Below, one piece after another: positions 28,248 through 34,675 of a stretch of 64,000 nucleotides of DNA. Made by a program: the position numbers and the translations under genes. The DNA comes from an uncultured bacterium (GTDB taxonomy: Bacteria > Planctomycetota > UBA1135 > GCA-002686595), in the NCBI GenBank assembly GCA_937896235.1, contig CALBMX010000036.1:114309-178308 (forward strand), written 5' to 3'. The notes under the pieces were generated by a model. That model ran no database searches and was not told the origin of the DNA. It saw only the letters and a list, made by a program, of their open reading frames with translations. The stretch's first letter is position 1. Every line of letters starts with the position of its first letter.

Positions 28248-30035
28248 TTAAGTCGCAAGGGCGAGCAAGACTTGCAGCTTCAAGAAATCTACGTCCTCGA
28301 TGATAATTCCGATCGAGTATCCCTCGGTGAAAGACAAGAGCCGTTTTCCCTGCTGAATGGTTAGTGTCGATCCTTCAAACTTCGGGCGATCACCGATTGT
28401 TCGTGATGGCAAGAAGCCTGTGACATGAAGTCCCACGAGCTCAATCTCCATTCCCGCACGATTCACACGCAGGATTTTGGCTGGAAGTTTCTGGCCGATC
28501 ATCGGCTCCATCAGCTGGCAAACTTTGAGATCAAATACCGCGCGCTCGGCCATCTCCGCAAAGCTTGATTGATGGGAGGCATGCGTGGCCATGGAGTTCA
28601 AATCGAGCAGCAGCCCCTCTCCTCGCAACTCGCTCTCCTTTTCACCATCCCCATTGAGGATCTCGTTGAGCCAACGGTGGACGATCAAGTCTGGATAGCG
28701 CCTGATCGGAGACGTGAAGTGCAGGTAGGCCTTGCGCGCGAGCCCCCAGTGCGTGGCAACGTCTTCGTGATCCTTGACCTCGTAGACGGCCTTTTCGACA
28801 AGCCCCATGATGCGCTGCACGAGCGCCTCCGCATTAACGCGCTTGCGAGCGAGAGTGATCATACGTCCAATGTCGCGACCACTGAGGCGCTCCTTTTTAG
28901 GCACACGGATACCAACCTTTTCCAACAGGGCCATCACCTTCTCGGCCTCTTCCGGATCTTTCTCGGGGTGTACGCGATAGATCGTGGGCAGTCCTTTTTG
29001 GCGGAAAAAATCACCAACAGCCTGGTTGGCTGCAAGGGCTGTTTCTTCGATCAGGGTTTGGGAGAAATAGTTGGCGGCTATAAAGATCTCAACGGGCTCA
29101 TGCGCGTCATCAAATCGAAAGCGCTTCTCTTTGCTCTGCATGCGCATGGAGCCTTTCGCGTCACGAAGAGCCTGCTGTTTGCGAGTCCAAAGTTTGAAGT
29201 GCCCCAAGGCTTCTTTGAGCGGGGCAAGCTCGCGTGTCTCTTCCGTGTCTTTGCCATCTAGCAATTCCTGAACAACTCGGTAGGTAGCGCGCTTCTTGCT
29301 GCGAATCACACTCTTTGCGAAATGGGACGCCGTTCGCTCTCCGGCGGCATCAAACTCCATGATTACGGAGAATGCCAAGCGGTCTCGATCGGGCACCAAA
29401 GAGCAGAGGCCATTGGAGAGCTCTTCTGGAAGCATCGGTACGACCTGGTCGGCGAGGTAGACGCTTGTGCCACGTGCAAGAGCCTCGTCATCAAGAATCG
29501 TCCCTTCGCATACATAGTGGCTCACATCTGCAATGTGAACACTGATCCGGTAGCAGCCTTTCTGCTCCATGGGCTCGATCTGGATCGCATCGTCGTAGTC
29601 TTTTGCATCGGCACCATCGACCGTGAAGATGAGCTGATCCCGTAGGTCGAGGCGCCCCTCGATATCCTCTGGGCGCGGATCGCTAGGAAGGCTAGCCGTC
29701 TCTTCGAGAACGTCCTTCGGGAAGATGGTTCGAAGCCGAAAGGAGCGCAGAATCCCGAGCTCCTCGGACTTCGGATCTCGATAGCAATCCGGGCCTGTAT
29801 CCATGGGGCCAAATCCAGAGGGGCGACCAGAGATTCTATCTGGAATGTCTGTCTGGACCGCGGGTAGGGCCGCCAACTCTTCCTCAGTGAGTTCGTACTC
29901 CTCGTCCCCCGAGAGCAGGGTCCAACCTTTCTCCTCGGCAGGCGCAGGCAGCTCCTTCTCAGGGCCGTCATGGGTAGCTTTGCGGAGGGCGTCAAAGCTG
30001 CTAAAACTGCTGCCTCCTGAATCTTTGGAACTCAT
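28248..30035 (-). CDS. rnr: RNase R/RNB family 3'-5' exoribonuclease, short form
   Basis: Protein of 595 residues with the RNB catalytic domain: the metal-binding motif DGADAKDYDDAI near residue 137 and the conserved IHIADVSHYV, TSPIRRYPDLIVHRWL and YLADQVVPMLP segments. A C-terminal S1-like domain follows (KLPAKILRV to about residue 585). The N-terminus is only about 110 residues, acidic and low in hydrophobics, and has no recognisable cold-shock domains; classical RNase R has two OB folds there and is 700-800 residues long. The start at 30035 is chosen because MSSKDSGGS has a TATGCT -10-like hexamer 6 bases upstream; the longer frame runs into promoter sequence. Role: RNA decay in the cytosol. 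Confidence 0.9.
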   Translation of the reverse strand: MSSKDSGGSSFSSFDALRKATHDGPEKELPAPAEEKGWTLLSGDEEYELTEEELAALPAVQTDIPDRISGRPSGFGPMDTGPDCYRDPKSEELGILRSFRLRTIFPKDVLEETASLPSDPRPEDIEGRLDLRDQLIFTVDGADAKDYDDAIQIEPMEQKGCYRISVHIADVSHYVCEGTILDDEALARGTSVYLADQVVPMLPEELSNGLCSLVPDRDRLAFSVIMEFDAAGERTASHFAKSVIRSKKRATYRVVQELLDGKDTEETRELAPLKEALGHFKLWTRKQQALRDAKGSMRMQSKEKRFRFDDAHEPVEIFIAANYFSQTLIEETALAANQAVGDFFRQKGLPTIYRVHPEKDPEEAEKVMALLEKVGIRVPKKERLSGRDIGRMITLARKRVNAEALVQRIMGLVEKAVYEVKDHEDVATHWGLARKAYLHFTSPIRRYPDLIVHRWLNEILNGDGEKESELRGEGLLLDLNSMATHASHQSSFAEMAERAVFDLKVCQLMEPMIGQKLPAKILRVNRAGMEIELVGLHVTGFLPSRTIGDRPKFEGSTLTIQQGKRLLSFTEGYSIGIIIEDVDFLKLQVLLALAT

Positions 30036-30041
30036 GGAGAC

Positions 30042-30047
30042 AGCATA
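30042..30047 (-). promoter_or_regulatory. Candidate -10 (TATGCT) for the RNase R gene, leaderless
   Basis: On the minus strand TATGCT is followed by GTCTCC and the ATG at 30035, a 6-base spacing. No Shine-Dalgarno is visible. Confidence 0.4.
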
Positions 30048-30291
30048 GCAGCGCATGGATTCCTTTCCGGGAGTGTGCGGGGCATCTGTTACGATTTTTT
30101 GGCACTGCCGGTGGGGGACGCTTCGACACGGGGCTTCTTCCGCCTTCCCATCTAGAGGGTTTGTTTGCCCTGGGGGTAGATCCAACTTTCGGAACCAAAG
30201 GTGTTCTCAGCTAGAATGGGTGGCGGTCAGGACAGTACAGTGCTGCAAGGGCTTCCCCACACCACCCCCGAATCCTTCCCCACTCGCAAAA

Positions 30292-31091: not shown

Positions 31092-32021
31092 CTAATAGCC
31101 AAGCAGCGGGCCTAGAAAAGTGACCATCGCCACCCCCAGGAGGCCCATGGCGAGGCCTAGCATACCGCGTGTCGTCAAGGGCTCCTTGAGCACCACCACG
31201 GCGAGCAGGAAGGTAAAGAGCGTTGCCGTTTGGTTGAGCGCTGAGGCAATAGACGCATCGGCGTACTTGAAGCCTCCCATCCAGAGGAGAAGGGAACAGA
31301 AGCTGCCCAGGAAGATTCCGGGGAGCATGAATTTCCAAATGCGCCTCTCCCAAAGTTTCCCAAAGGAGCGTCTCTGTTTGTTGAGAGATGCCCAGACGAC
31401 GAGACTTGCAAGCAGTCCACCCATGAGTCTCCAGGAGGTCATCCAGAGTAGCGGCCAATCCGACAAGAACGGCTTGATCATTACGATCGAAACCGCTTGG
31501 GTAAGTGAAGCCGCGATTCCAAAGAGGACTCCGGATACGAGGTGCTCTATCGGCTTCTTTACGATCCCACCTTCCGGCCACCCAACGCTTAGTACGGCGC
31601 CCAGAATGAGGGCGACGCCGCTATATTGAAACAGGGTCAGTCTCTCCCCTAGAAATACGACACTAAAGAGGATGATGATCGGACTGTAAGACGTGTTGAC
31701 GATCGCTTGGCGGCTCGCACCGATCCTGTTGAGGCAGACAAAGAAGAACAGGTCTGCTACGGCAACTCCAAGTACGCCACTGCCTAAAAGTAAGGCGTAG
31801 TCACTCCAGTCCACGTGAGCAGGGGAAACGGAACCCGCTAGAAAGAAGGTCAAGAAGAACAGTGGGGTAACCAGGGCGTTCTTGGCGAGGTTCAGCGTGA
31901 TCGGAGGGATGGACTCTCCTGTTTTTCGGAACAGGAGGACTGCGAAAGACCAGCAAATGGGCGAGGCGAGGGCGAGCACCTCCCCTAAATGGGCGAACTC
32001 TATAGGTGCATCGGATGGCAT
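31092..32021 (-). CDS. EamA/DMT family transporter
   Basis: Integral membrane protein of 309 residues with ten hydrophobic helices arranged as two five-helix EamA repeats. The second repeat includes the conserved GASRQAIVNTSYSP-like and FLGERLTLFQYSGVALILGA stretches at the end of repeat 1, and VVLKEPLTTRGMLGLAMGLLG at the end of repeat 2. The family exports metabolites or amino acids or imports nucleotide sugars; the substrate cannot be told here. It diverges from the VLRF1-like gene. Confidence 0.9.
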   Translation of the reverse strand: MPSDAPIEFAHLGEVLALASPICWSFAVLLFRKTGESIPPITLNLAKNALVTPLFFLTFFLAGSVSPAHVDWSDYALLLGSGVLGVAVADLFFFVCLNRIGASRQAIVNTSYSPIIILFSVVFLGERLTLFQYSGVALILGAVLSVGWPEGGIVKKPIEHLVSGVLFGIAASLTQAVSIVMIKPFLSDWPLLWMTSWRLMGGLLASLVVWASLNKQRRSFGKLWERRIWKFMLPGIFLGSFCSLLLWMGGFKYADASIASALNQTATLFTFLLAVVVLKEPLTTRGMLGLAMGLLGVAMVTFLGPLLGY

Positions 32022-32029
32022 GTCCGCAG

Positions 32030-32035
32030 AGGATA
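32030..32035 (-). promoter_or_regulatory. Candidate -10 (TATCCT) for the EamA transporter gene
   Basis: Read on the minus strand, TATCCT lies 8 bases before the ATG at 32021, which would give a leaderless or nearly leaderless mRNA. Confidence 0.35.
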
Positions 32036-32112
32036 AGGAGTCGCCTGGTAGACCGCTCTGCTATTGACGGCAGATTCCAGTATTCTTTCCGGCTGCCCAC
32101 GGGGTTTCACCT

Positions 32113-32790
32113 ATGCCATCTCCCTCACTTCCAAGACATTCACCGACAACGTTTCCGTGGGAGGACTGTGAAGAGATCTGCGAAGAGACTCTGGCCGAGG
32201 CTAGGGCGTTGGGTCTTACCGTGACCTGTTCAGAGGATCGTCGTGCTTTCATTCTCGGGGAGAGCCGGATCGAGCCGCCCTTGGTTTTCCCCATAGGGCC
32301 TCTTTGTACTTCTCTCGATCACTTCGTAGAGAACCTTCCTGTGGAGCCCGGCCTGCATGTGGTTTTGTTGATGCAGGCTGGCGCATCATCCCTTGCCGTT
32401 TTTGAAGGTGGTGAGGTGCTTCGAACAAAGACGTTCAAACGCTACGTTGTGCGTGGCAGCGGACGGGCACAGCCGACTCACCTCAACGCAAAGGGGAAGT
32501 CCCGCTACGGGTCTAGATTGCGCTTGCAGAACGCGCGCGCCATCCTGGAGGAAACGAACGAGAAACTTCACGATTGGTGGAGCGAGTTTGGAACACCGGA
32601 AACCGTCTTTTATAACGCACCCGTCCGGCTTTGGGCCGACCTTCGTTCCGCAAAACCGGTGCCACCATTCACCGAATCCCTATCCTTAGTTCGCATCCCA
32701 TTGGACCTCCCCAAGCCGACGACGGATGTCCTATTGCGCGCCTATCGCTCGCTTTGTTACGGCCGTATTTCCACGATCGACGCGTCATGA
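32113..32790 (+). CDS. Bacterial VLRF1 (Vms1/ANKZF1-like release factor) domain protein
   Basis: Protein of 225 residues. Residues 92-150 match the VLRF1 fold of eukaryotic Vms1/ANKZF1: a strand ending in a KTFKRYVVR motif (residues 106-114), a short G-rich loop with Gln at 120 (GSGRAQ), then KGKSRYGSRLRLQN (127-140) and a helix. In Vms1 the same arrangement (KTFxxYT.R...GGSQ...GS.LRR.N) holds the catalytic Gln that cleaves peptidyl-tRNA on stalled 60S subunits. By analogy this protein would act on ribosomes or tRNA in the cytosol. The stop overlaps the rsmE start (ATGA), so the two are translationally coupled. The assignment is by motif recognition only; a profile search would decide it. Confidence 0.65.
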   Translation: MPSPSLPRHSPTTFPWEDCEEICEETLAEARALGLTVTCSEDRRAFILGESRIEPPLVFPIGPLCTSLDHFVENLPVEPGLHVVLLMQAGASSLAVFEGGEVLRTKTFKRYVVRGSGRAQPTHLNAKGKSRYGSRLRLQNARAILEETNEKLHDWWSEFGTPETVFYNAPVRLWADLRSAKPVPPFTESLSLVRIPLDLPKPTTDVLLRAYRSLCYGRISTIDAS

Positions 32791-33503
32791 ATTTGATCCT
32801 GCTCTTCCCCGAAGATTTCCAATCAGATACCTGCGCCACACTTGAAGGGCGTAGATTCCGACATGTGCTCGATGTTCATAAAGCTGAAGTCGGTGCCCAG
32901 CTGCGGGTTGGACGCATGGACGGAAAAGTCGGAGTGGGGCGTGTTCTCTCGATCTCAGAGCGCTCACTCGAGCTGGAAGTGACCCTCGATGAACAACCCC
33001 CGCGCCCCCTCCCTGTGACTTTGATTCTCGGGTTGCCAAGGCCCCGTATGCTCAAGCGAACTTTGCAGACAATCTCAGCAATGGGGGTGAAAGATCTGTA
33101 TTTGATCAACTCCTACCGGGTCGAGAAGAGCTTCTGGCAGACACCGGTTCTAAGCCCCGAAGGAATCCATGAGCATCTTGTCCTAGGCTTGGAGCAAGCC
33201 GTAGATACTTCGATGCCGAAGGTTCATCTTCGCAAGCTGTTCAAGCCGTTTGTGGAAGACGAGCTACCAGGGATTGCAGCGGGTACACGTGGCATTGTCG
33301 CACACCCATATCAAGCGGCCAAACTCCCAAGTGCTAGCCATGAGGCTACGACCTTGGCTGTGGGGCCCGAAGGCGGTTTTATCGATTACGAAGTCGCCAA
33401 ACTGCAAGAGTCGGGGTTGCAATCAGCCCATCTTGGCCCGCGCATATTGCGAGTGGAAAATGTAGTTCCCGTTTTGCTCGCTAGGCTTTTCCCCGTGATC
33501 TAA
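32787..33503 (+). CDS. rsmE: 16S rRNA (uracil-1498-N3)-methyltransferase RsmE
   Basis: Protein of 238 residues. The C-terminal SPOUT domain shows the RsmE/Trm-like knot motifs: LAVGPEGGFIDYE and the terminal LGPRILRVENVVPVLLARL. The N-terminal PUA-like domain starts at FPEDF and includes FRHVLDVHKAEVGAQLRVG. The ATG at 32787 overlaps the VLRF1-like stop; the longer frame upstream lies wholly inside that gene. RsmE methylates N3 of U1498 in helix 44 of 16S rRNA, near the decoding site. The stop codon overlaps that of the convergent gene at 33500. Confidence 0.93.
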   Translation: MNLILLFPEDFQSDTCATLEGRRFRHVLDVHKAEVGAQLRVGRMDGKVGVGRVLSISERSLELEVTLDEQPPRPLPVTLILGLPRPRMLKRTLQTISAMGVKDLYLINSYRVEKSFWQTPVLSPEGIHEHLVLGLEQAVDTSMPKVHLRKLFKPFVEDELPGIAAGTRGIVAHPYQAAKLPSASHEATTLAVGPEGGFIDYEVAKLQESGLQSAHLGPRILRVENVVPVLLARLFPVI

Positions 33504-34675
33504 GTGTTCGACTTGCGCCGCTCCGCAAGGATCAAATCGATTAGCAAGCTATAGCTTGTCACTCCCTCAGCTTGACCATGACTGCGTAGATAAGCGTCGT
33601 TCGATAGCTCAGCGAGATCGCTCAAAACGCCAAGCTGCTCCATCCACCACACACTGGCCCTGTGGCGGTCTTGCCGAACCTCGTCACTCAGGGTCTCTAC
33701 GATTTGGGCCGCGCGCCTGCTTTGGGCCGGATGGGAAGACTCATGAATTGCCAAGGCGTTTAAGCCTAGTCCAAGGGCAACCATATTGGCCGAATAGAGC
33801 AGTCCTGCATCTTTCGAACTCTGGCAGGCCTGCCACGCAACGAAGTTCGCTTCACCCTCAGCAGCGATGCCGAGTTGATGGGCCATCTCGTGACAGGCCG
33901 TAAATGGTTGCGACCAATCGGGTATGTCGCCATTCACGTGAGCGTCACCTGAAAACGGTGAGTAGATCCCGCTGATGCCAAGGCGGGAAAGTAGGCGGCT
34001 GGCCGCGGCGACTCGAAACCTAGGACGGAGGCCATGGAAGATCGGTGTGGCGGCCGCGAATTTTGTCATGGCAGCTACCGCGTCTGTTCCACCGCGAGCG
34101 CCCTCTCCGACGAGCTCCAGTCGATGAGGGTTGAGTGAGCTCCTCAGGGAGTTGCAGCTGGCTGCCAGGTCCAAACAGAGGGAGGTGAGCTCCAGCTCAA
34201 GGTCGGCGGCTTCCGCTTGTTCCAAGCTCTCCTGCAAACCAACGTGAACGGCATAGGGTCGTCGGGCGTGGTGGAATCCCCACAGCAGCAGGAAACAGCA
34301 ATATACGATGCAACACAACCAAAGGGCTCGGCGTAGCGCTGCGATGATTAGGGCGCCGAAGCTAACTTCCTGGGACACGACCTTGCGAACGCTCAAAAAG
34401 GCTCGAAGCCCAAGGAGTAGAACAAGCAGGACCAGCCCAACCTCACTCACGGAAAAAGGTAGGCCCTCCAATAACCGGGCTTGCGCGTGGAATATGAGAG
34501 GGTAAAGCCGCTTGCAGTACAAGTCCTCTACGAGCTCGGCCGGAGCCCAGTTCACCGCAGCTGCGCCCAGGGCGGAAATTGCCAGAGCAGCGAGCACGCG
34601 TTGGCTACTGACTCCTCGCATCCCCTGCGCGCCACCGGGGCCGGAGTTATCGCCTGATTCATTATGGTCCTGCAC
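33500..34675 (-). CDS. DUF3810-like membrane protein with HExxH motif
   Basis: Protein of 391 residues. Two or three N-terminal membrane helices (VLAALAISALGAAAV, VGLVLLVLLLGLRAFL, ALWLCCIVYCCFLLLWGF) precede a soluble domain with HEMAHQLG near residue 262 and EGEANFVAW 15 residues later, the zinc-peptidase-like signature of DUF3810. The active site should face the periplasm. The GTG start at 34675 is supported by a TAGCCT hexamer exactly 6 bases upstream. No substrate is known for the family. It ends on a stop codon shared (CTAA) with rsmE. Confidence 0.8.
   Translation of the reverse strand: MQDHNESGDNSGPGGAQGMRGVSSQRVLAALAISALGAAAVNWAPAELVEDLYCKRLYPLIFHAQARLLEGLPFSVSEVGLVLLVLLLGLRAFLSVRKVVSQEVSFGALIIAALRRALWLCCIVYCCFLLLWGFHHARRPYAVHVGLQESLEQAEAADLELELTSLCLDLAASCNSLRSSLNPHRLELVGEGARGGTDAVAAMTKFAAATPIFHGLRPRFRVAAASRLLSRLGISGIYSPFSGDAHVNGDIPDWSQPFTACHEMAHQLGIAAEGEANFVAWQACQSSKDAGLLYSANMVALGLGLNALAIHESSHPAQSRRAAQIVETLSDEVRQDRHRASVWWMEQLGVLSDLAELSNDAYLRSHGQAEGVTSYSLLIDLILAERRKSNT

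Follow-up and report, generated by a model that had tools for sequence, protein, structure and literature searches.

In yeast, Vms1 releases stalled proteins from jammed ribosomes; what might a relative of it be doing in a planctomycete? The question is raised by a 64,000-nucleotide stretch of DNA from an uncultured member of that phylum (contig CALBMX010000036.1; hereafter the window), in which a Vms1-like protein, VLRF1, is encoded immediately ahead of the 16S rRNA methyltransferase gene rsmE. Two partners come into question: the methyltransferase next door, and RqcH, a homologue of Rqc2 that adds the tails in bacterial ribosome quality control (RQC) and is encoded elsewhere in the same genome. 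Most genomes with a planctomycete-type VLRF1 carry RqcH, and VLRF1 is therefore a candidate for the dedicated last step that bacterial RQC seemed to lack; the chances are about even that it is a stand-alone Vms1-type factor which frees RqcH-tailed chains from 50S subunits. As for the overlap with rsmE, the preferred reading is that an operon formed within a single genus and would merely co-express two ribosome-related genes.

The initial annotation had recognized the protein by the stretch KTFKRYVVR, a glycine-rich loop and Gln120, all of which are present in the translated open reading frame (ORF), where the motifs run KTFKRYVVR-GSGRAQ-PTHLNA-KGKSRYGSRLRLQN. Profile searches bear the identification out: the 225-residue protein passes the gathering cut-off of Pfam bVLRF1 (PF18826; 76.8 vs 27 bits, E 2.2e-21), the only Pfam model that it matches over the model's own cut-off. 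At E<=1e-3 the family comprises 595 proteins with the window's own counted. Among the named loci the nearest relative belongs to a metagenome-assembled genome labelled 'Planctomycetota bacterium', in keeping with the assigned phylum. Membership in acVLRF1 was considered and rejected, as the similarity is weak, covers part of the domain and falls under both curated cut-offs (PF18859, 19.7 vs 27.1 bits; NF041024, 17.2 vs 125 bits); baeRF10 likewise scored below its Pfam cut-off. As a separate observation, PF18854 (baeRF_family10) and PF18826 are both annotated on five proteins (P0100, P0190, P0206, P0224 and P0235), which may form a bridge between the two families.

According to the available part of PMC6514570, the VLRF-1 clade is marked by a GxuQ loop, where u is a tiny residue, by an N-terminal extension and by arginines after the loop that are predicted to bind large-subunit rRNA. 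The GxuQ motif is present as G117-R-A-Q120. In an alignment of 57 sequences (the window's and those of 56 of 70 named loci), R114, G117 and Gln120 are invariant and residue 119 is alanine or serine in 56 of the 57. The start of the following helix is equally constrained, with S130, R131, G133, R135, L136 and R137 identical in all 57 sequences; in an AlphaFold2 model this arginine-bearing helix spans residues 131-159. The model has a predicted local distance difference test score (pLDDT) of 91, only residues 116-126 falling under 50, and its best structural match is yeast Vms1, which aligns over residues 10-222 and places a glutamine at the position of the loop glutamine. To the extent that a predicted structure can tell, the Vms1-like fold anticipated at the outset is thus recovered. 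The N-terminal extension common with eukaryotic VLRF-1 is judged from structure alone, Vms1 being aligned from residue 10. Alignments to eRF1, Pelota and Balon begin at model residues 76-80, the core fold in common covering about residues 78-216, and that to aRF1 (4af1) spans 13-215 but at a root-mean-square deviation of 11.0. Unlike Vms1 and ANKZF1, for which the available part of PMC6514570 describes a Rei1-type zinc finger, ankyrin repeats and other extra domains, the window protein shows neither a zinc finger nor ankyrin repeats nor any further domain in a Pfam scan.

The loop also sets the protein apart within its own family. It is one residue shorter than that of Vms1 in all 120 proteins listed among the 595 relatives (the window's own counted) and in 67 of the 70 named loci; the remaining three are Lentisphaerae with a KKQGxxQ loop of Vms1 spacing, a type common to Bacteroidota and Lentisphaerae that the window protein does not have. 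A Lentisphaera query returned the short spacing in 13 of 119 new proteins, a set in which the loop pattern misread three rows. The planctomycete type shares with Bacteroidota-type bVLRF1 the Pfam family over cut-off, GxuQ, the arginine-rich helix start and a small stand-alone size, whereas its loop reads Y-VVR-GxGxAQ against the Y-MVR-KKQGxxQ of Bacteroidota, one residue longer, and it occurs mostly in planctomycetes with RqcH. The two types are also separated in a tree of 91 rows (the window, the 63 of 70 named-locus rows that reach 150 residues, and 27 of the 119 new proteins picked by hand), where a branch supported at 100/99 has 61 planctomycete-type rows and three ungrouped proteins on one side, and 10 Bacteroidota and 10 Lentisphaera rows on the other. 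Six of the 61 are labelled Acidobacteriota or Thermoanaerobaculia and Riflebacteria. By sequence, then, planctomycete-type VLRF1 is a separate short-loop subfamily. Its distribution is patchy: VLRF1 occurs in 12 of 41 genomes including the window's own, in 16 of 294 in a sample of the phylum Planctomycetota, and in one of 194 from the phylum of Lentisphaera marina, namely that of L. marina itself.

The window genome encodes a single RqcH homologue (G000:C39, a 538-residue frame) that matches the RqcH of entry 7aqc at 4.4e-38. The acidic-arginine pair at RqcH positions 97-98 is kept in most of 50 aligned RqcH rows, with aspartate or glutamate in 47 and arginine in 45; entry 7ope reads A-A there. 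Across the phylum sample, RqcH (PF05833 over cut-off) is found in 14 of the 16 genomes with VLRF1 as compared to 123 of 294 overall (Fisher p 1.6e-4, kinship ignored), the latter count following the curated cut-off, since a looser E<=0.001 gives 176 of 294; the VLRF1, RqcH and rsmE samples, 294 genomes each and in agreement where genomes are common, are treated as one set. By family, all 10 that contain VLRF1 are among the 41 with RqcH out of about 95 (P about 1e-4), in a hand tally that counted a match as strong at a best E <=1e-9; the figure of 95 is simply the highest label that families bore, and f2-f4 may lie outside the sample. Among the named VLRF1 genomes, which overlap with the phylum sample and are not independent of it, RqcH passes the cut-off in 55 of 70 (35 of 50 and 20 of 20), all of them among the 67 of planctomycete type. 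On these counts, uncorrected for phylogeny, the link is strong in the planctomycete sample and absent in three Lentisphaerae. RqcH stays below the cut-off in 15 named genomes, namely G323, G324, G326, G329, G330, G331, G333, G340, G347, G356, G358, G363, G367, G368 and G369. When the window RqcH was used as a query on 17 RqcH-negative genomes, with G322 as a positive, a match of 82 bits emerged in G358 and a short fragment in G331; just an NFACT-R-like stretch was returned from G329, G330 and G356, and 12 gave no match. Those three, labelled Acidobacteriota or Thermoanaerobaculia and holding VLRF1, have short NFACT-R-like frames of 151-176 residues in place of a full RqcH. In Bacteroidota, the one control genome, Bacteroides ihuae, has neither VLRF1 nor RqcH. 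As an aside, the available part of PMC11633108 gives rqcH in 7 of 211 genomes of the Planctomycetes-Verrucomicrobia-Chlamydiae (PVC) group (Table 1), as compared to 123 of 294 here; RqcH may be under-detected in the group, or the genome sets differ.

How the two factors might work together can be outlined. RqcH would first add a tail to the stalled chain. VLRF1 would then probably enter the A-site side of a 50S subunit still holding peptidyl-tRNA, and Gln120 would release the chain once tailed, either by hydrolysing the ester bond or, in the manner described for Vms1, by cutting the tRNA at its 3' end. The family assignment, the motif, the predicted fold, the invariant glutamine and arginines, the RqcH of the same genome and its co-occurrence in the phylum sample were observed; the catalysis, the 50S substrate and the action after RqcH we infer. 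In the available part of PMC8012679 the termination of bacterial RQC is called unknown, and that of PMC11317155 describes it as lacking a dedicated factor; planctomycete VLRF1 is therefore proposed as a Vms1-type terminator of RqcH-driven tailing. Somewhat more tentatively, planctomycete RQC as a whole may be eukaryote-like, with RqcH tailing the stalled chain while it is on the 50S subunit, and with a Vms1-type factor of the short-loop subfamily dedicated to ending the tailing and freeing the chain. If so, bacteria would have a dedicated RQC terminator, the first described in them, and Rqc2 and Vms1 would work as a pair outside eukaryotes. In any case, the Vms1-type protein found alongside RqcH in a single bacterial phylum is a named, testable candidate for the end of RQC, and the pairing bears on how eukaryotes joined Rqc2 and Vms1 in one pathway. 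No paper linking planctomycete VLRF1 with RqcH was found in the library searched, as judged by titles and abstract openings.

Several observations weigh against a role downstream of RqcH. In the phylum sample two of the 16 VLRF1 holders are exceptions, with a weak RqcH match (G193, f15) or none (G264, f63); among the named genomes 12 of 67 planctomycete-type holders and all three Lentisphaerae have no match over cut-off, and rqcH was not found beside VLRF1 within the flanks of the 70 named loci. VLRF1 is rare among RqcH carriers (14 of 123 in the phylum sample; in the window's own family, two of 11 genomes have VLRF1 and all 11 have RqcH), and the association sits at the level of families, and genomes that are related are not independent. 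The loop shorter than that of Vms1 is a further departure from the model system. In B. subtilis, moreover, Pth is reported to release RqcH-tailed chains (available parts of PMC11317155 and PMC11633108). The window genome does have Pth, as well as tmRNA; Pth belongs to a separate Pfam family, PF01195, to which VLRF1 gives no match at E<=1.

Alternatively, VLRF1 would need no RqcH and would act as a single-component release factor on ribosomes that are stalled or damaged, as Burroughs and Aravind propose for prokaryotic VLRF-1; the co-occurrence would then merely reflect shared lineages. In favour of this are section 13 of PMC6514570, according to which the occurrence of prokaryotic VLRF-1 is independent of the other RQC components, the patchy spread of VLRF1 across phyla, the Lentisphaerae without RqcH and the three of five acidobacterial-labelled holders (L038, L039 and L074) that gave only a short NFACT-R-like stretch. 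Against it stand the enrichment of RqcH in 14 of 16 genomes, for which rsmE serves as a flat control, and the position of the Lentisphaera proteins across the main branch of the tree; this account seems to us possible, if doubtful. It is rather improbable that VLRF1 is a non-catalytic A-site binder which, like Balon or Pelota, serves in hibernation or splitting. Both of these proteins do match it structurally, yet the loop glutamine is invariant (57/57) and its spacing constant (120/120), a constraint that, together with the glutamine itself, is missing from most baeRF-1 families, which are thought inactive (available part of PMC6514570).

There remains the neighbour, which had initially been suggested as the other half of a module joining nascent-chain release with small-subunit modification. 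The observation itself is confirmed: the adjacent gene is rsmE, passing the RsmE equivalog model NF008700 (328.5 vs 252 bits), and the VLRF1 gene ends in an ATGA common with the rsmE start, which likely couples their translation. In a congener (L031) the two genes overlap via GTGA, and coupling is therefore real in the window's genus, both examined members of which have an overlap. Beyond the genus the arrangement was not seen. In 12 loci from 12 genomes (flanks <=1.5 kb, window counted) rsmE adjoins VLRF1 in the window and the congener only, a result repeated with a 13-sequence profile. The recurrence across Planctomycetota that had been looked for amounts to one of 70 named loci, again the congener, which already largely refutes the module; here flanks reached up to 6 kb (downstream at least 1 kb in 65 loci and under 1 kb in five), and the two-sequence rsmE profile used recovered 11 of 11 RsmE controls. 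A PF04452 (RsmE) match was present in 10 of 16 VLRF1 genomes examined, beside VLRF1 only in the same two. On the complete chromosome of Pla163, rsmE lies more than 1.5 Mb from VLRF1, and no PF04452 match was found on that of Poly30 (G337), which has VLRF1, or in the VLRF1 genomes G336, G338, G339, G327 and G324. In the phylum sample, rsmE occurs in 12 of 16 VLRF1 genomes vs 201 of 278 others (213 of 294 overall; p 0.54). The module is thus rejected as very improbable, adjacency being local to one genus and the presence of rsmE showing no association with VLRF1, a correction to the first reading. The initial interpretation is accordingly partly supported: the VLRF1 match and Gln120 hold among homologues, and the rsmE overlap does not. 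Independently of VLRF1, a PF04452 match is missing in 81 of the 294 planctomycete genomes.

Table. Features at and around the VLRF1 locus (window positions).
Feature	Position	Strand	Remarks
bVLRF1-family (Vms1-like) release-factor gene, planctomycete type	32113..32790	+	ATG start, 225 residues
N-terminal extension, residues 10-77	32140..32343	+	aligned with Vms1 core in structure alignment
Predicted catalytic loop R114-G-S-G-R-A-Q120 (GxuQ motif)	32452..32472	+	Gln120 codon CAG, 32470-32472
S130-R-Y-G-S-R-L-R137, start of helix after loop	32500..32523	+	arginines predicted large-subunit rRNA binders
ATGA overlap, VLRF1 stop and rsmE start	32787..32790	+	likely translational coupling
rsmE, 16S rRNA (uracil1498-N3)-methyltransferase	32787..33503	+	238 residues; starts at ATG of ATGA
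DUF3810 gene	33500-34675	-	E 3e-73; converges on rsmE, overlapping its end by 4 bases
EamA transporter gene	upstream of VLRF1	opposite	
Presumed RNase R/RNB exoribonuclease ORF	28248-30185	-	resemblance by eye; about 2 kb from VLRF1

Because EamA lies upstream on the opposite strand and DUF3810 converges from downstream, VLRF1 and rsmE form an isolated same-strand pair. No sigma-70 promoter was found in 31900-33700, and the two terminator-like sites in that interval are at chance level. A conserved gene context of VLRF1 was likewise rejected, as families differ among 10 neighbour proteins scanned from nine loci: DUF502 (L032 and L034), asparaginase (L037), UPF0176 (L036), PKD (L057), DUF2911 (L039), histidine kinase (L041) and protein kinase (L043) are found, and two of the 10 have no family match. 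Recurrent neighbour blocks in about 20 loci look like the synteny of one clade, and in two close relatives a DUF502 gene lies directly 3' of VLRF1 (L032:6754-7389 and L034:1186-1863).
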